A DNA stretch of 15,193 nt from positions 1-15,193 of the forward strand of contig WALA01000014.1 in the NCBI GenBank assembly GCA_015523085.1, given 5' to 3'. Shown in pieces: positions 4,050-10,900 of the stretch. A program made the position numbers and the translations under genes. Origin of the DNA: Candidatus Aenigmatarchaeota archaeon. Lineage in GTDB: Archaea; Aenigmatarchaeota; Aenigmatarchaeia; GW2011-AR5; WALA01. The notes beneath the pieces were generated by a model. It was given only the letters and a program-made list of their open reading frames with translations, was not told where the DNA came from and did not search any database. The number at the start of each line of letters is the position of its first letter. Positions within the stretch are counted from its first letter, which is position 1.

Positions 4050-5267
4050 TCAGACAAAAATGTGCCACACGTAAACACGCACGATGAACGGCTCCAACAC
4101 CTTCAATCCGGGCAAGAAGTAATCGAGCGAGAAGTATTCCTTCCCCGGGACCTTCTCCGGTTCAAGCGGTGAAAAAGTGCTTCCATCAAGCTTGTACTTC
4201 TCAACGGCCGTGAAGAGAATTACCGCTTTTGTGAGCTCATCAATGTCAGAGTAATTGTATTCACCGACAATCCACGATGCGTACGCCTTTCCGTACGGTC
4301 GCACAGTCGCAAATGCGTTTCCGTCGTTGTAAAGAACGCTGTGGCTGCTGCTCTTTCCAGAGCCATCTATGTTGAATTCGTACGTCTTGTTCATTATCTC
4401 CAGGTCGGCGAACGTTTCTCCGTACGACGCGTTCCCATTGACGTTCTCAACGTATATTGCATACGGCGGTATTGAAAAGTTTTCTCCGATTTCATAATAC
4501 TTTCCCGACCCGACTGGATATTCGACGCAGTTGTGGCACGTGTCGTTGTCAAACGTTTTTATCTCGTAATTTGTTTTTTGAAGCGTAATGTTTCCCGTTT
4601 GCTCCGATTCAGAACCGTGCGTGAGAACTCTGAACGGCGATAACGTGAAAATTCTTGATATATGGTATGACATCGATGAGACGCTTGAATTGAAATGAGC
4701 ATTACCTTCCACTTTCGATACATCGGACAAATCGAACAAGTCATCGACCGAATCCGTATCGTTGCTTATGAGAACGATTCCAATTCCTCTTTTCAAATAC
4801 CTTTCCGCCGTGCCTTCGTCGATTTTCGTTTGATTGTAAAAAACTATGACATCGGAGTTCGCCAGACCTTCAAGGGTTCCGTTCTTGATTCTTATCTCCG
4901 TGCCGCGTCCGTTGTACTTGAATTCGAGCGGCTCCAGCGTCCTGTTCAGTCGTTCGATGTTCGTTTTGTTGCAAACGCATCCGACCTTGACGATTGGCTT
5001 CGGAAGGCCGATTATTTCTATGGAGAAATCGTACGGACCAACGAGCATGCTTTCAAGTGAGCTGTGGAAGCCCCTCCAATCGTTGTTCATCACGTAGTTC
5101 AGCGTTCTGTTTGTCAGCGAAAGCGCAGATAGGAGATCTTCCATTTCGCGATGCGCGTATATCTTTGACCAGGGCTCCATCTCGTGCGGTGCGGTGAATT
5201 GATAGAGAACTGCGAATATTATTATCGATGCCAGCAACGCTTCCAGTGTTTTCACGAACCCTTTCAT
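4050..5267 (-). CDS. Large pilin-like surface protein rich in N-glycosylation sequons
   Basis: No family was recognised over the whole 405 residues. The N-terminus, MKGFVKTLEALLASIIIFAV, has a short basic leader ending in KG and then a Glu-containing hydrophobic helix, as in class III/type IV pilin-like signals. The rest should be outside the membrane. Thirteen N-x-S/T sequons occur (for example N53, N100, N108, N145, N226, N338), and there are two cysteine pairs, C97/C99 and C244/C247. Residues about 136-168 (SDVIVFYNQTKIDEGTAERY and the strand GIGIVLIS) look like part of a GATase1/Rossmann-like domain, a weak similarity. The end, RVYVWHIFV, is aromatic. It is the last gene of the pilus operon. 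The ATG at 5267 overlaps the preceding stop as TGATG. An in-frame TTG at 5270 is four bases after a GGTG and is an alternative start. It may be a minor tip pilin or adhesin. Confidence 0.75.
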   Translation of the reverse strand: MKGFVKTLEALLASIIIFAVLYQFTAPHEMEPWSKIYAHREMEDLLSALSLTNRTLNYVMNNDWRGFHSSLESMLVGPYDFSIEIIGLPKPIVKVGCVCNKTNIERLNRTLEPLEFKYNGRGTEIRIKNGTLEGLANSDVIVFYNQTKIDEGTAERYLKRGIGIVLISNDTDSVDDLFDLSDVSKVEGNAHFNSSVSSMSYHISRIFTLSPFRVLTHGSESEQTGNITLQKTNYEIKTFDNDTCHNCVEYPVGSGKYYEIGENFSIPPYAIYVENVNGNASYGETFADLEIMNKTYEFNIDGSGKSSSHSVLYNDGNAFATVRPYGKAYASWIVGEYNYSDIDELTKAVILFTAVEKYKLDGSTFSPLEPEKVPGKEYFSLDYFLPGLKVLEPFIVRVYVWHIFV

Positions 5268-5710
5268 CAATAAACACCAACTGTTATTTTTGCTATTTCA
5301 TAAGACCCCGTGGTTTCGTTTTTGAACACGCCGAACCTGTTTATGATGTACGAGCGCTTTAACCTGTTAACGGGGCCGCACTCGCTCACAATGTCTCCGT
5401 TTTCGTTTTCCACGCGGACAATCAGAAGTCCATTGACGTTGAGCTCCTTCACGAGTCCCGCATAATCCGAATTGCACGACGATGTGAACTCATTGACTTT
5501 CGTGAGATTTATGAAATACGGCGCGCCAGATGAGAAATTCTTGAAAAGCAGGTACTCACTTATCTGATAGCACTTTGCCATCTTGTAATTTGTGACGTAA
5601 TTGTTGTGCACCTTCGGCATCTCGGACGCGATGAAGCTTACAACGGCGAGTATGGAAATTGCGAATATTCCGACGTCTATTATGAATTCTATGTCGCTTT
5701 GCGCTTTCAT
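5267..5710 (-). CDS. Class III signal peptide pilin-like protein (147 aa)
   Basis: This is a small exported subunit of the pilus-like system. It begins MKAQSDIEFIIDVGIFAISI, a textbook class III signal: cleavage is expected after KA, giving a mature Q1 with Glu at +5, followed by a hydrophobic helix that packs into the filament core or anchors the precursor. The rest is hydrophilic, with three cysteines (in KCYQ, SSCNSD and SECGP) and sequons NFS, NLT and NET. The frame is open far upstream, but that segment lies inside the platform gene. The ATG at 5710 overlaps the platform gene's stop as ATGA and yields the signal peptide, so it is preferred. Which pilin is the major one cannot be told from sequence. 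Confidence 0.85.
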   Translation of the reverse strand: MKAQSDIEFIIDVGIFAISILAVVSFIASEMPKVHNNYVTNYKMAKCYQISEYLLFKNFSSGAPYFINLTKVNEFTSSCNSDYAGLVKELNVNGLLIVRVENENGDIVSECGPVNRLKRSYIINRFGVFKNETTGSYEIAKITVGVY

Positions 5711-6630
5711 ATTATACCAAGCCACCCTATGAGCATGAATATGAGTACTCCACTCAAGCTCATTATTATGAGATGCTTGAGGCCCGCCTTGAGCGAGTTG
5801 GACTCTATGACGCCGGCTATGAGGCCGGAAAATACGGCCTGTATCATTATCATGGCGAAGAACATACCTTTGTAATAGCACTGAGCTCCCATCGTTTTTC
5901 CGAGTCCGAGCGAGAGACAGACTGAGTTGAATATCGGGCATCCAATGCAGACAAGTGGATCGTGGCACACGCTGCATGGGTCTCCACCAAACGACATTCC
6001 GAATTGGCTCGCTCCCACGCTTATGCTCATCATGGGCGCCATGAATTTTAGAAGTATGAGGACGATGCCTATGAATATGAAGAATATGGCGTATATCATA
6101 GTGACATGCTGCGACATCAAACTCTTTCTCTTCTTTTCTATTTCTTTTATCTTTTCTAGATTCGCGGCAAGGCTTTCCGATATCTTTGTTATGTCCCCTC
6201 CTGAAACGTACGCCTGCATTATTATGTACATCACGCGCTTTATGGTCTTGCTGTCCGTTCTATCTATGAATTTCTTTATGGCCTTATTCATTCCGACGTT
6301 CCATGACGCTTCGGAAACCATTTTTTTCAATTCCTTCGAGAACGGCCCGTAGTCCTCCTTGCTCGCCATCTTGAAACAGTCGTAAAGGTTCAGTCCGGAT
6401 TTCGAGTGTTCGGCGATGCTCCGCAGGAACATTGGAAGGACACTTTCCATGTCCTTCATGCGCTTGTACTTTATGTAATTGTAAACTCCGTACGGGACGG
6501 CCGTGAGTATCACGCCCCATATGATTATGTTTATGCCTATTATCGCGTTCTTGATAAACAGAACGTTGACTAAAAGAAGGACGGCCGTAGCGGCCAACAC
6601 TGATATCTCGTAAATTTTCATCTTGTTCAT
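5707..6630 (-). CDS. TadC/FlaJ-like membrane platform protein with six-cysteine external loop
   Basis: The 307-residue protein belongs by architecture to the T2SSF (GspF/TadC/FlaJ) group, the inner-membrane platform that the assembly ATPase acts upon. Two N-terminal membrane segments (about 9-26 and 31-50) are followed by a cytoplasmic helical domain (about 58-175) with the typical LRSIAEHSKSGLNLYDCF and QAYVSGGDITKISESLA repeats. Three more membrane segments lie near 178-200, 254-275 and 286-305. Between the third and fourth is an unusual loop with C219, C222, C228, C231, C238 and C251; by the expected topology it faces outside. It follows a second, cysteine-poor TadC gene by five bases, so the platform is probably a heterodimer. 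The start ATG at 6630 follows the upstream stop TGA, whose AGTGA could serve as a weak ribosome site. Confidence 0.88.
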   Translation of the reverse strand: MNKMKIYEISVLAATAVLLLVNVLFIKNAIIGINIIIWGVILTAVPYGVYNYIKYKRMKDMESVLPMFLRSIAEHSKSGLNLYDCFKMASKEDYGPFSKELKKMVSEASWNVGMNKAIKKFIDRTDSKTIKRVMYIIMQAYVSGGDITKISESLAANLEKIKEIEKKRKSLMSQHVTMIYAIFFIFIGIVLILLKFMAPMMSISVGASQFGMSFGGDPCSVCHDPLVCIGCPIFNSVCLSLGLGKTMGAQCYYKGMFFAMIMIQAVFSGLIAGVIESNSLKAGLKHLIIMSLSGVLIFMLIGWLGII

Positions 6631-6635
6631 TCAAA

Positions 6636-7496
6636 TCACTGCACTGGTGAAACGGATTTCGTGAATATTATGAACATTATGGATATGAGCGGCAGCAGTA
6701 TGAATATCACGAACGATTGTATCATGACGATGGAAGGCGACGCTGAAATGAGTCCCATGACTGCCGACAGGACTATGAAAAATATGGAGCCGGCGATTAT
6801 CATCGTGAAATATATTTCAATGTACACCGAGAGGTCTTGCGAGAATTTTTCTATGCGGTTCGCATAGTCGTCCATGAGCTCATCCGACTTATCCTTCAAG
6901 TACTCGTTCAGCCGCCCGCCGGATGAAATGGTCGTGTACATCCCCCACAGGAATTCCTTGAGCTTTTTGGACGGCGTGGACTCAGCAACTGTTTTTATGG
7001 ATTTCAATATGTCCATTCCGAACATTTCCACGTTCCGCGATATCTCCTCGGACTCCTTTGAAACCTCGCCGTAGTCCTTGAACTTTGACATTGTCTTGAA
7101 CAGCTGACTAGGAAGAACATCGCCGGACGAAAGAGCGTAAAAGTAAGTCGCCGAAAACGGAAGCGTGAGGTCTATGTCCTTTTCGCGGTTTTTCGATATT
7201 GACGATGGATACACGTAGAAGAACAAAAACAGCATTCCCGAAAGCGCCACGGAAAGGGTGAACGCCATTATGACAGCTTCCACCGGGTTCTTGAACGTGA
7301 ATCCGAATATCATGGACAGGAAGATTGTCTCGAAAGCAAACGTTATGAGAGTCGTTGATACGGCCACGGAAAGATACTCGTCAAGCGTGAGACCCATCTT
7401 TGAGCTCGCCAAATCCGACTTCATGTCCTTGAAGTAATCCCTAATTATTCTCACTATCCATCCGAAATGTTTCCTCGAAAAATTAACATAATTCAT
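6636..7496 (-). CDS. TadC/FlaJ-like membrane platform protein
   Basis: The 286-residue protein is the first of two T2SSF-type platform subunits for pilin assembly. An amphipathic, basic N-terminus (to about residue 40) precedes membrane segments near 44-66 and 71-97. A cytoplasmic helical domain (about 103-222) contains FSATYFYALSSGDVLPSQLF and GMYTTISSGGRLNEYLKDKS, the duplicated helical motif of FlaJ/TadC proteins. Two C-terminal membrane segments (about 228-251 and 257-279) follow. It lacks the cysteine loop of its downstream partner. The frame is open upstream to 7601, but that part overlaps the ATPase and reads as basic, non-conserved sequence. The ATG at 7496 overlaps the ATPase stop as ATGA and has GAGG upstream. 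Coupling to the ATPase gene fits their physical interaction. Confidence 0.88.
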   Translation of the reverse strand: MNYVNFSRKHFGWIVRIIRDYFKDMKSDLASSKMGLTLDEYLSVAVSTTLITFAFETIFLSMIFGFTFKNPVEAVIMAFTLSVALSGMLFLFFYVYPSSISKNREKDIDLTLPFSATYFYALSSGDVLPSQLFKTMSKFKDYGEVSKESEEISRNVEMFGMDILKSIKTVAESTPSKKLKEFLWGMYTTISSGGRLNEYLKDKSDELMDDYANRIEKFSQDLSVYIEIYFTMIIAGSIFFIVLSAVMGLISASPSIVMIQSFVIFILLPLISIMFIIFTKSVSPVQ

Positions 7497-9430
7497 AATT
7501 CTGCCTCTATTCTCGTGAGCACTTCGTCCTTTTTCATCTTGTAAAGGTCTATGACGCGCGTGAATATTCGGTAGTCGTTTATCTTCCTGAGCGCTATCCA
7601 CTTCAGGAGCTTCGTTCTGTTCTTGAATTCTTCCTTGAGCTCCTCTTCAACGAACCCGTGGACGGAGCGGACTTTTTCGAGCATGTAACTCTTGTTGTCT
7701 ATGATGAACTTGTCGTGGTCCGCATCCCAGTGGAATATGCGCCTCGTTATGGGCTGATTGCTTTTCCTGTCGAATCCGAGAATTTCCACAACTTCGTTGA
7801 CCCTTCTTATGTACCTGTTCTTGTACTTCATTCTCTTGAGGAACACGATTATGTTTAAGCTCTCTATCAAGCTCGGTGAAAGGTTTATGGGAGGCGTCGT
7901 CAGCCTGTCCATAAGCTTGTTGAAATCCTCTGCGTGTATTGTCGATATGCCCGGGTGGCCCGTCGCCATCTGCTGGAAAAGGACGTACGCTTCCTTGCCA
8001 CGGACTTCACCGACTATTATGTAATCAGGCCTCTGCCTAAGCGACTCGCGTAGCAAATCGAACATCGTTACACCGCCAAGTGTGGATGACCTTGCGACTT
8101 CCGGTATCCAGTTCGGGTGTATGAGACGGATTTCCGCCGTGTCCTCTATGGAAACTATTTTCGCCTCCTTTGGAATGAATAGCGATATTGCGTTGAGCAG
8201 GGACGTCTTTCCCGTTGCCGTTCCGCCTGATATGAGAACAGACGACGAATTCTCTATGAGGAACCACAGGTACGCCACAATGTTCAAGTCCATCGTTCCG
8301 TTCAGGAGCATGTCCGTCGGCGTCAGCGGCATTTCCGGGAATTTTCTTATAGTGAAGTTGCTTCCCTTGTGGGCTATGTCGCTGCCAAGCGTTGCCTGCA
8401 CTCTCGACCCGTCTGGAAGCGAGCTGTCCAAGAGAGGGCGAAGTATGGAAATACTCTTCTTGCACTTTTCCGCGAGCTTCATAACGAACTCGTCGAGTTC
8501 GTCCTTTGAATTGAAAACTATGTTTGTCGCAATTGATCCGATCCTGTTGTCCTTGTGGTAGACGAATATCGGTATGCCGACTCCATCACACGATATGTCC
8601 TCTATGTTCGGGTCCTTCATAAGGGCGTCTATCTTTTCAAGACCGAGAAAATCGCGGAATATGTAATACTTCAAAACGCGCTTTCGCTTCTCGTCCTTTA
8701 TGCTAAAATAATCAAATGCCTCATCGACCTTCTTTTCCAAGTACGCTATGGCTTCCTTCTTGTTTATCTCATCGAATATTACGTTTATCTTGTCCTCTAT
8801 GTACTCCTTTATGACGACTATCTGCTTCTTTCCCGCGTCGTCGAGCTTCGGTTCAACGACTTCGTAAACCAAGTTCCCCCTTCTCTCATCCCAGTGTATG
8901 TGCGCGTACGCGAGCGCCTTGTCCAAGGACGCCTTTTTCGGCACGAGCGAGTACTTCATTTCTATGCCCTGCCTTTCGGCTTCCGTGAGCTCCTCCGCTT
9001 CCTCTTTCACGACGTCCTCGGTGGCTGGAATCTCTATTCCGGCGTCAAGATTTATTCCATTCTCATCGCTTTGGACGTGGTCACTTCTTTGATCACTTCG
9101 GTCGCGCTGCTCGTTTACGACTATTATTTTCTCTTCGGGCGTCCGCGCGTTCTGCAACTTTTCGAGCTCACTTATGATGCGCTCGTCAATAACCTCGGCT
9201 TTTGGACGCTCATGAACAATCTCTTTGACAATTTCCTTCGTCGGTTTGATTATCTCCTTTGTGGTGGGATGCCTTATCTTCTCCTCTATGTGCTTGAGTC
9301 GTTCTAATATCTCCTCGTTCTTCTCAACGTCCGTTATTGAGCGGTGAACTTGCGGCGACAGTTTTACCTTCGACTTTCTCACCCGTCTCGTGTTCGCTCC
9401 GGGCTTTACCATGATGCGTATCTTTCTCAA
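7493..9430 (-). CDS. VirB11/FlaI/TadA-family secretion ATPase with long N-terminal extension
   Basis: This 645-residue type II/IV secretion ATPase powers assembly or export of the pilins on the cytoplasmic face. The catalytic core has Walker A SGGTATGKTSLLN (K408), the Asp box IVSIEDTAEI (425-434), Walker B PDYIIVGEVRG (468-478) and the His box GHPGISTIHAED (491-502). The N2-type domain spans roughly 255-365, including NIEDISCDGVGIPIFV. Residues 1 to about 155 are an extra, highly charged and probably partly coiled segment. The C-terminal 130 residues resemble the FlaI-type tail (RRVNEVVEILGFD and RRIFHWDADHDKF). The start is TTG at 9428-9430, five bases after GGTG within GTGGTGAT. An ATG at residue 7 (MVKPGAN) is the alternative. 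The subfamily (pilus, archaellum or secretion) is not decided by sequence; no FlaH partner is present here. Confidence 0.93.
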   Translation of the reverse strand: MRKIRIMVKPGANTRRVRKSKVKLSPQVHRSITDVEKNEEILERLKHIEEKIRHPTTKEIIKPTKEIVKEIVHERPKAEVIDERIISELEKLQNARTPEEKIIVVNEQRDRSDQRSDHVQSDENGINLDAGIEIPATEDVVKEEAEELTEAERQGIEMKYSLVPKKASLDKALAYAHIHWDERRGNLVYEVVEPKLDDAGKKQIVVIKEYIEDKINVIFDEINKKEAIAYLEKKVDEAFDYFSIKDEKRKRVLKYYIFRDFLGLEKIDALMKDPNIEDISCDGVGIPIFVYHKDNRIGSIATNIVFNSKDELDEFVMKLAEKCKKSISILRPLLDSSLPDGSRVQATLGSDIAHKGSNFTIRKFPEMPLTPTDMLLNGTMDLNIVAYLWFLIENSSSVLISGGTATGKTSLLNAISLFIPKEAKIVSIEDTAEIRLIHPNWIPEVARSSTLGGVTMFDLLRESLRQRPDYIIVGEVRGKEAYVLFQQMATGHPGISTIHAEDFNKLMDRLTTPPINLSPSLIESLNIIVFLKRMKYKNRYIRRVNEVVEILGFDRKSNQPITRRIFHWDADHDKFIIDNKSYMLEKVRSVHGFVEEELKEEFKNRTKLLKWIALRKINDYRIFTRVIDLYKMKKDEVLTRIEAEL

Positions 9431-9433
9431 ACT

Positions 9434-9441
9434 ATCACCAC
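9434..9441 (-). promoter_or_regulatory. Ribosome binding site for the ATPase TTG start
   Basis: The minus strand reads GTGGTGAT, complementary to the ATCACC at the 3' end of archaeal 16S rRNA. The GGTG core is five bases before the TTG at 9428-9430. This spacing, shared with other genes of the window, favours TTG over the ATG 18 bases further on. Confidence 0.65.
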
Positions 9442-9466
9442 TTATATTTGTTTTTTATTTTTATAT
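9442..9466 (-). promoter_or_regulatory. AT-rich gap, possible internal promoter before the ATPase gene
   Basis: The only sizeable gap inside the pilus operon (9431-9466) is almost pure A/T on the minus strand and contains TATAAAAATA, centred near 9462. That is about 26 bases before 9436, just ahead of the ribosome binding site. It could be an internal promoter that raises ATPase and platform expression separately from the pilins, or only an AT-rich spacer. Upstream purine (BRE) context is unremarkable. Confidence 0.3.
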
Positions 9467-9850
9467 TTATGAGCTCCCGTAGCTTATTCTGACGATGTTG
9501 TGGAAGCTCGTGAATTTTCCAAACTTGCTTATTCCGTACAGGACGTCCGTGAAGCTCATGTTCCCCCTGAGTGTTTGGGTTCGGAGCTCATTTCCGCTTG
9601 CGATGACTACGTACTCGTTCTTTCCGATGGTTTGCGGAATGCGGACGGTGATTGTTGCATTCTCGCCGCACGCATAATCGTCTACGATTATGGATGATAT
9701 GAGAGAATTCACGTCCATGAGCTGGTCACGAACGAGCGTGCTTCCGACGGACGCGGACGCCATATTGAAGACTAGCATCACAGATGATGCAAGCACCACC
9801 CCGAGGGCGAATATTAATATTTCTTCAAATATGGCATTTTGTCCTTTCAT
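9467..9850 (-). CDS. Class III signal peptide pilin-like protein (127 aa)
   Basis: This is a small pilin-like subunit starting MKGQNAIFEEILIFALGVVL: KG precedes a predicted cleavage site, the mature protein starts with Gln, acidic residues lie at +6/+7, and a hydrophobic helix follows. The remaining 90 residues are predicted extracytoplasmic, with one cysteine (DDYACGENAT) and sequons NAT and NMS. Its leader is nearly identical to that of the gene just upstream (MKGQNQ), which suggests processing by the same archaeal prepilin peptidase. The ATG at 9850 overlaps the previous stop as ATGA. No Shine-Dalgarno is visible, so translation likely depends on coupling. Candidate for a major or minor pilin; its role is not resolved. 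Confidence 0.85.
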   Translation of the reverse strand: MKGQNAIFEEILIFALGVVLASSVMLVFNMASASVGSTLVRDQLMDVNSLISSIIVDDYACGENATITVRIPQTIGKNEYVVIASGNELRTQTLRGNMSFTDVLYGISKFGKFTSFHNIVRISYGSS

Positions 9851-10464
9851 GAAAATGATAATTTTATTTCGGATATTGTTATCGTGGAGCCGTCGGGAAT
9901 TCCCGGAATGTTGTTGGCCACTTCCGTGTCTGTCCCGACGTTTTCTATCGTAATTTGGTGATTGGGGCCGACGCTGAACGATTTTCCTGTGAGGTCGATT
10001 TCATAGCAGCGCGCGCCTTCGCACAGCGGGAACGTCTGGAGCACGTAGGATGTCATGTACTTCTTCCCGACCATCCTCGTGCTTTCGTGGAGCACGTAAG
10101 GGTCGTCCGAACCCCACACTCCGTATCCGTTTGTCGGTATGGTTTTGCTGCCGACAAAGTAAATTGTGCCACCAACAGAATAAATCGTTCCGTCCGTCGT
10201 GAGGTTTATTTCCACGTAATTTTGGTCTGGGAAGAACCTGAACGTTCCGGGAATGTTGAAATAGACAACGGACTTCCCACCGTTGTTTGCCACGAACTTT
10301 ATCCGGTTGCTGAGGTCGTTCATGAACGCCTCGCTTCTCTTCAAATAAACCGTGTCCTTGTTCTTCTGTATGAGCGGCATCCCCCAAAGGTACGCCGTGG
10401 ACACGACGGCTATCATTATACCCGTAATCAGAATTGGCGTGAGCGCTTGGTTCTGGCCTTTCAA
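9847..10464 (-). CDS. Pilin-like exported protein with class III-type leader (205 aa)
   Basis: The protein starts MKGQNQALTPILITGIMIAV, so it has the KG-Q processing site and hydrophobic helix of archaeal pilin-like proteins. It lacks the acidic residue at +5/+6 found in the other pilins of this operon. After the helix comes a mainly beta-strand domain (about 45-200) with one cysteine pair (C148 and C153 in CEGARCYE) that could form a small disulfide loop. Few sequons are present (NLT). The start is TTG at 10462-10464, five bases after the GGTG of AGAGGTG, which overlaps the end of the coiled-coil gene. Alternatives are a minor pilin or an FlaF/FlaG-like stator component; sequence alone cannot separate these. 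Confidence 0.8.
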   Translation of the reverse strand: MKGQNQALTPILITGIMIAVVSTAYLWGMPLIQKNKDTVYLKRSEAFMNDLSNRIKFVANNGGKSVVYFNIPGTFRFFPDQNYVEINLTTDGTIYSVGGTIYFVGSKTIPTNGYGVWGSDDPYVLHESTRMVGKKYMTSYVLQTFPLCEGARCYEIDLTGKSFSVGPNHQITIENVGTDTEVANNIPGIPDGSTITISEIKLSFS

Positions 10465-10468
10465 AGGC

Positions 10469-10897
10469 TCACCTCTTGACGTTTCCTATCATTTTGGTGG
10501 GCCAGTTCTTTTGGGCACGTGAAAGTACGAGGGCATTAACCTTGCGCTCGATTTTCTCTATCTTCTCGAGAAGTTGCTGGTGTGACTCGAGCAACTTCTT
10601 GTTTTCCTCGATAAGCTTTGCCGTGTCCTCCGTCGGCTCCTCCTCTATGACGTCTATCCTGTTCAGAAAATCGGAGAGCTTGTCAACGAGGTTTTGTATG
10701 CTCCCCTTGAGCTCAGTTATGGCCTTCACGGTGTCGACGTTCATCTTGGCGAGGTCGTCCACAATTTTTTGATTCGTTTTTACCATTTCAATTATCTGAT
10801 CGTTCAGTCCGTTACCGCCATTTTTCTCGAGCTCCTCTATTTTCCTCTCGAGCCTTCTTATGGGATTTAACGGAACGAGTTCGTATTCGTCACTCAT
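10469..10897 (-). CDS. Small coiled-coil protein, first gene of the pilus-like operon
   Basis: The protein is about 142 residues, soluble, without signal peptide or membrane segment, and has two stretches of heptad-like leucine/isoleucine pattern. One is near the N-terminus (RRLERKIEELEK, then a helix rich in I/V/L to about residue 85). The other is at about 95-125 (KLIEENKKLLESHQQLLEKI). The end, ALVLSRAQKNWPTKMIGNVK, is basic. Its place before pilins and ATPase recalls the coiled-coil FlaC/D/E-type proteins of archaellum operons, but I see no conserved FlaD/E motif, so the parallel is positional only. Of two tandem ATGs (10900, 10897) the second is five bases from the GGTG core. A TATA box lies about 26-30 bases before the likely transcription start. 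Confidence 0.8.
   Translation of the reverse strand: MSDEYELVPLNPIRRLERKIEELEKNGGNGLNDQIIEMVKTNQKIVDDLAKMNVDTVKAITELKGSIQNLVDKLSDFLNRIDVIEEEPTEDTAKLIEENKKLLESHQQLLEKIEKIERKVNALVLSRAQKNWPTKMIGNVKR
10470..10476 (-). promoter_or_regulatory. Ribosome binding site for the 205-aa pilin TTG start
   Basis: The minus strand reads AGAGGTG, with its GGTG core five bases before TTG (10462-10464). It includes the last codons and stop (TGA) of the coiled-coil gene, so the two genes are tightly coupled. No ATG lies near, and a later start would lose the leader. Confidence 0.7.
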
Positions 10898-10900
10898 CAT

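Follow-up and report, generated by a model that had tools for sequence, protein, structure and literature searches.

The pilus gene cluster and its second platform protein

The window, by which we mean the whole stretch of 15,193 nucleotides analysed, is contig C14 of a small archaeal genome (432 kb, 81% complete) whose named kin are mostly titled Candidatus Aenigmatarchaeota. Positions 4050-10900 of the minus strand hold a tight cluster in which several genes overlap. Starting from the first gene, the cluster reads as follows:

10469..10900 (-), coiled-coil-like protein of 143 aa that opens the apparent operon; homologues found in 36 of the 45 loci searched, and only weak matches to coiled-coil families
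9847..10464 (-), pilin-like protein of 205 aa with a KGQ start; homologues in 36 of the 45 loci searched
9467..9850 (-), pilin-like protein of 127 aa with an MKGQ start; homologues in 35 of the 45 loci searched
7493..9430 (-), pilus assembly ATPase: T2SSE (PF00437, E 3.8e-32) and PilB3_C (PF23989, E 3.9e-7)
6636..7496 (-), J1, first platform protein, T2SSF (PF00482, E 4.8e-13), zero cysteines
5707..6630 (-), J2, second platform protein, T2SSF of the TadC/ArlJ type, 307 aa, five predicted transmembrane (TM) segments
5267..5710 (-), DUF7287-like class III pilin with a cysteine pair, C79/C111 (PF23958, E 5e-5; 24.4 bits, under the cut-off of 27)
4050..5267 (-), pilin-like protein of 405 aa, DUF7288-like, with C97-x-C99 (C97 in 25 of 27 aligned rows, C99 in 26 of 27)

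The likely start of J1 is the ATG at 7496, which overlaps the ATPase stop; the open frame runs over 6636-7601 and, as expected by the original prediction, encodes no cysteine at all. At its other end, J2 is overlapped by 4 bases by the DUF7287-like gene. J2 itself is a T2SSF platform protein of the PilC/GspF/TadC/ArlJ kind: it carries the T2SSF domain (PF00482, scoring 66.1 bits where the cut-off is 25.2), the cytoplasmic helical fold (region 48-178 matches the cytoplasmic domains of PilC, EpsF and OutF), and it has ATPase and pilin neighbours. The NCBIfam ArlJ equivalog model placed J2 under its cut-off (best 66.3 bits against 400), the ArlJ models being longer than the split J1 and J2, which lowers the score. 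No solved structure was convincingly related to J2 by sequence (best E 0.48), and the clear fold matches cover the cytoplasmic domain only, so that an unmatched loop says nothing about novelty of fold.

According to hydropathy and the structure model, J2 is laid out as an N-terminal hairpin, the T2SSF domain, TM3, a loop, TM4, a short turn and TM5. The features of the loop are given below, with C1 to C6 denoting its cysteines in order; codon positions are read from the gene, and the partners are those suggested by the pairing pattern described further on.

5869..6036 (-), TM3-TM4 exoplasmic loop, residues about 199-254, housing the six-cysteine subdomain (placed by charge pattern and AlphaFold elements)
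5974..5976 (-), C219 (C1), probable partner C231
5965..5967 (-), C222 (C2), probable partner C228
5947..5949 (-), C228 (C3), probable partner C222
5938..5940 (-), C231 (C4), probable partner C219
5917..5919 (-), C238 (C5), probable partner C251
5878..5880 (-), C251 (C6), at the outer end of TM4 (model helix from 249), probable partner C238

Translation of 5707-6630 (-) gives seven cysteines, at residues 85, 219, 222, 228, 231, 238 and 251. Both the predicted CxxC-x5-CxxC-x6-C-x12-C arrangement (C219, C222, C228, C231, C238, C251) and a single further cysteine outside the loop (C85) are therefore present as described. The interval first assigned to the six cysteines, 5942-6010, was wrong: it covers the codons of residues ~208-230 and thus only C219, C222 and C228, the six codons in fact occupying 5878-5976 (-), with 33 residues from C219 to C251. 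At least six of seven cysteines fall within one 33-residue span with a probability of 6.5e-6, or ~0.002 once 275 spans are counted. Clustering by itself is thus modestly unlikely, and the certainty that the feature is real comes from conservation.

A protein search with J2 returned nine relatives, and matches (E 0.001) were found in 58 of 59 genomes, a set that includes its own. In an alignment of 40 rows, one of which is the paralogue from the same genome that lacks the loop, C219 was kept in 39, C222 in 38, C228 in 38, C231 in 39, C238 in 17 and C251 in 18. Conservation across homologues rules out a chance cluster of cysteines in J2.

The loop was predicted to face outside, and this was supported by a positive-inside charge count together with the identity and order of the cytoplasmic domain. 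Averaged over 80 members, the loop has 2.1 K+R against 4.7 D+E and is net negative, while mean K+R is 19.9 in residues 48-173 and 1.2 in the TM4-TM5 turn. Such evidence points, indirectly, to an exoplasmic position of the cysteine loop. In the AlphaFold (AF2) model of J2 (mean pLDDT 83, pTM 0.70), helices span 218-221, 227-241 and 249-277, TM4 beginning at 249, so that C238 and C251 lie on successive helices. Block mean pLDDT rises from 53-58 at 201-220, the weak stretch in which C219 sits, to 70 at 221-230 and to 83 at 231-240. In this model, C219 and C222 could lie opposite C228 and C231 over a tight turn, and C238 could lie near C251.

Distribution of the loop and the cysteines of neighbouring proteins

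The cysteine loop was found in 43 of 75 named loci and was absent from the other 32, which come mostly from other DPANN groups. By title, the loci with the loop comprise 37 Aenigmatarchaeota or Aenigmarchaeota (including Aenigmarchaeum), three labelled archaeon, two Nanoarchaeota (L058 and L064) and one Micrarchaeota (L049). Those without cysteines comprise 16 Pacearchaeota, five Nanoarchaeota, three labelled archaeon, two Aenigmatarchaeota (L081 and L083) and one each of Woesearchaeota, Altiarchaeota, archaeon UBA55, Undinarchaeales, Euryarchaeota and DPANN. The proteins of L081 and L083 are, like the paralogues, short (273 and 267 aa).

Length separates the two kinds of loop as well. The stretch equivalent to J2 196-260 has 62-78 residues in the loci with cysteines against 27-50 in those without, and within its own genome the 65 residues of J2 compare with 25, and no cysteine, in the copy from a second platform pair on contig C7. 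Twenty of the 20 paralogues fetched, hand-chosen out of many hits, have 26-38 residues and zero cysteine there; four of their genomes (G004, G009, G010, G014) have no full-length J2 match. Platform proteins with and without the cysteine loop were both read in the genome of the window and in G002, G007, G012, G013, G021, G028, G038 and G053. The paralogues on contig C7 and in relatives thus belong to the same T2SSF family, but lack the longer, cysteine-bearing stretch of J2. Within this sampling, the subdomain thus seems to have been added to a single platform subunit, in one pilus system of one lineage of archaea. It is also worth mentioning that the only same-genus genome among the 59 (G001, 94% complete) gave no match (E 0.001) to J2 or its paralogues, so that members of the genus may be able to do without the pilus machine.

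Two neighbours of J2 carry cysteines of their own. In the DUF7287-like pilin, C79 is kept in 29 of 31 rows and C111 in 30 of 31. Both cysteines were present in the DUF7287 protein of 33 of 40 loci with the cysteine loop against 0 of 24 without it, and only one of the two in seven of the 40 rows and one of the 24. The cysteine content of this protein therefore tracks the loop, but the correspondence is confounded with lineage and may go back to a single shared event. In the 405-aa protein, the CxC supplies the only constant cysteines in 27 aligned rows, a few relatives having CxxC instead. A DUF7288 match was obtained for two of 25 members of this protein's family and not for the protein of the window itself. 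A wider iterated profile recovered CxC in 26 of 37 loci with the cysteine loop, and 25 loci without it were unaligned at that site. No constant cysteine was found in the two upstream pilin-like proteins, where the best columns reached 17 and 15 of 38, and 4 of 36.

The neighbouring genes themselves are more widespread than the loop. In loci with enough downstream DNA, profile matches to the DUF7287 protein were obtained in 38 of 40 loci with the loop and 24 of 31 without it, and to the 405-aa protein in 35 of 37 and 21 of 24, respectively; these profiles were iterated and may drift, and presence was counted anywhere in the locus. That the loop is present only beside DUF7287- and DUF7288-like genes was ruled out. 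Many cysteine-free loci share those neighbours. Profiles of all eight cluster genes match in 31 of 43 loci with the loop (counted by eye, some contigs being cut short), and most of them also match loci of Pacearchaeota, Undinarchaeales and Altiarchaeota. As for the ATPase, the orthologue at L062:2018-5101 contains an intein, with Intein_splicing and LAGLIDADG_3 matches between the ATPase halves, and at L035:3411-5007 the match to the homologue is spread over two overlapping frames, pointing to a frameshift or to an error of assembly.

Paired gain and loss of the loop cysteines

With 59 hits from a profile search and 75 loci from a scan of named genomes, the set grew to 165 aligned sequences, among which near-duplicates were frequent. 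After removal of five remote ones (P0055-P0059), the remaining 160 were thinned to 112 (<85% identity), and 80 of these have cysteines in the loop. The number of cysteines is even in 79 of these 80 non-redundant loops. Writing C1 to C6 in order, with a dot for an absent cysteine, the states were CCCC.. in 34 loops, CCCCCC in 27, C..C.. in 14, C..CCC in two,.CC.CC in one and CCCC.C in one; the remaining loop (P0053) has two cysteines and an unsure alignment. For the tree-based tests, a manual re-scoring changed P0053 from C1+C3 to C1+C4; the counts over the 80 loops precede this change.

Three pairings stand out, since C1 and C4 agree in presence or absence in 79 of the 80 loops, and the same holds for C2 and C3 (79 of 80) and for C5 and C6 (79 of 80), while each of the 12 other pairings disagrees in 17 to 51. 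The single mismatch for C1-C4 and for C2-C3 is the badly aligned P0053, and that for C5-C6 is P0006, which keeps C6 without C5 and is the only exception to parity. A second, later set came from a search with a new profile, made from divergent family members: the best 120 of 464 hits gave 118 newly numbered proteins, of which 77 remained after thinning against the first set and among themselves. Being found by a profile of family members, these are new sequences of the same family. All 77 have even numbers of cysteines and only the predicted states (CCCCCC 43, CCCC.. 30, C..CCC 2,.CC.CC 2). It had been asked whether relatives conserve the six cysteines as a set; they are conserved, but they come and go as the pairs C1+C4, C2+C3 and C5+C6.

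The same pairs emerged on trees. On an 80-row tree built without the loop columns, C1, C2, C3 and C4 changed 1, 2, 2 and 1 times, and changes fell on the same branch in 1 of 1 for C1/C4, 2 of 2 for C2/C3 and 8 of 9 and 8 for C5/C6, with no same-branch change for the 12 other pairings. On a 157-row tree (1, 3, 3 and 1 changes), the figures were 1 of 1, 3 of 3 and 14 of 15 and 14, the single C1/C4 change falling on a branch that also carries one C5/C6 change. Few events thus stand behind C2/C3 (three) and C1/C4 (one). With only well-supported branches considered, C5/C6 yielded six pairs, of which five went the same way and one showed no difference (sign test p 0.06). The trees were quick ones with many weak forks, and the hypergeometric p values for co-change, which treat branches as equal, are indicative only.

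Because the cysteines are gained and lost jointly in twos, with the rest unaffected, we read them as three structural disulfides. Most probably, the J2 loop is a small exoplasmic subdomain between TM3 and TM4 held by these three bonds in a type IV pilus-like machine of Aenigmatarchaeota. Paired conservation and loss, together with the indirectly supported exoplasmic location, are what would be expected of a disulfide-rich subdomain, and the bonds would presumably form in the cell. The variable spacing within the motif, the placement of C238 and C251 on successive model helices and the conserved cysteine pairs of the two proteins encoded next also speak for this reading.

The bonds might instead run between subunits, from J2 to J2 or from J2 to a pilin, a reading encouraged by the DUF7287 cysteine pair, which occurs only beside cysteine loops. 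However, that contrast follows lineage, and the DUF7287 cysteines are conserved as a pair of their own. Inside J2, moreover, the pairs change together at short separations that suit bonds within one loop, so we regard bonding between subunits as improbable.

The original prediction had proposed a metal-, disulfide- or cluster-binding plug. Its disulfide part agrees with the paired gain and loss, while the metal or cluster part does not, since either C2+C3 or C1+C4 can be dispensed with. CxxC repeats are reminiscent of zinc knuckles, and C219, C222, C228 and C231 are all present in 62 of the 80 non-redundant loops, so a four-cysteine core might form a tetrathiolate site for zinc or for an iron-sulfur cluster, with C238 and C251 as extras. 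Yet C2+C3 are missing while C1+C4 are kept in the C..C.. loops (14 of 80) and the C..CCC loops (2 of 80 and 2 of 77), and the reverse is seen in.CC.CC (1 of 80 and 2 of 77). A tetrathiolate site would not survive either loss, and we therefore reject this reading. The spacing also drifts: C1 and C2 are separated by two residues in 61 loops and by four in one (CxxxxC), C3 and C4 by two in 57 and by three in five (CxxxC), and the central gap between C2 and C3 varies from four to eight; the charge of the loop, in addition, places it outside. Metal or cluster binding is, on these grounds, very improbable.

Hardly credible, finally, is a platform-borne relay of the Dsb or Mia40 type, with the CxxC motifs as redox-active thiol-disulfide pairs: in its favour are the two CxxC motifs of the loop, the CxC of the neighbouring DUF7288-like protein and a genome (81% complete) without a match to the VKOR, Thioredoxin_4 and Thioredoxin oxidoreductase families, but it predicts that C1/C2 and C3/C4 move together, and the CxxC is not an evolutionary unit, as these pairs disagree in 18 and 18 of the 80 loops, never change on a common branch of either tree and are broken in the 14 of 80 loops with C1 and C4 only, plus P0053 as re-scored. 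Among the 59 genomes, which include that of the window, VKOR was matched in two (one over the cut-off) and Thioredoxin_4 in 35 (30 over the cut-off). The lack of matches in the window's own genome and the rarity of VKOR count against the disulfide reading; co-occurrence with an oxidase was weak as support for it and was set aside.

A probable stapled outer domain on a type IV filament platform

Under the disulfide reading, C219-C231 and C222-C228 would form a nested pair stapling the tight turn between the short helix 218-221 and helix 227-241, and C238-C251 would tie helix 227-241 to the outer end of TM4. In alpha-hairpinins and twin-Cx3C proteins, nested C1-C4 and C2-C3 staples hold a helical turn. 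The loop of J2 may be likened to them by connectivity alone, as it has CxxC-x4 to 8-CxxC within a loop of a membrane protein. The third bond, C238-C251, is optional, which suggests tuning of stability rather than catalysis. The result is most likely a rigid loop shape that is not seen among the related platform proteins compared.

By its position, the stapled domain might be a rigid cap or a surface for docking, either at the point of pilin extraction from the membrane or at the seat of the filament base and of minor pilins such as the DUF7287-like and DUF7288-like products, which it might contact. One could also imagine that the loop and its two cysteine-bearing neighbours make up a lineage-specific exoplasmic thiol-disulfide system, in which the DUF7288-like protein would use its CxC to oxidise, or to check, both the loop and the DUF7287-like pilin, and the pilus would assemble only with a correctly oxidised cap; we consider this a long shot.

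Like the PilC/GspF/PulF and ArlJ/TadC systems, the J2 system combines a T2SSF protein with a secretion ATPase and pilin-like proteins of class III, whereas the 33-residue cysteine subdomain (C219-C251) between TM3 and TM4 is a feature of J2. In a model of PulF, a short periplasmic loop links TMS1 and TMS2 (PMC10790770). For ArlJ, an archaellum review describes conserved cytosolic loops, and the word "cysteine" is absent from its main text (PMC8978795). A census of archaeal type IV pili reported disulfide-prone cysteines in almost every component of one Thermoproteales system, as well as in ATPase N-terminal domains and an S-layer-like protein (Makarova 2016; PMC4858521). The Thermoproteales parts, like J2, have conserved cysteines predicted to form disulfides, but the census passages on such cysteines name no platform loop and no DPANN case, and the term "DPANN" is absent from its main text (PMC4858521). 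Homologues of FlaG, FlaI and FlaJ have been reported from Aenigmarchaeota (PMC8407114). Our searches of the open-access literature brought up no T2SSF platform protein described as having a cysteine loop.

Overall, J2 and its loop represent a known machine in a form restricted, as far as sampled, to one lineage; its outer face may have become cysteine-stapled in the Aenigmatarchaeota lineage, possibly in one inherited event. Platform proteins are a core part of type IV filament machines and are poorly understood. On the outer face of one platform subunit, a probably stapled, conserved domain indicates a site at which a specific partner may contact the platform from the exterior. The pairing predicted for the cysteines is sharp enough for a single mass-spectrometry experiment, and the same experiment would establish the topology of this class of proteins in these archaea.
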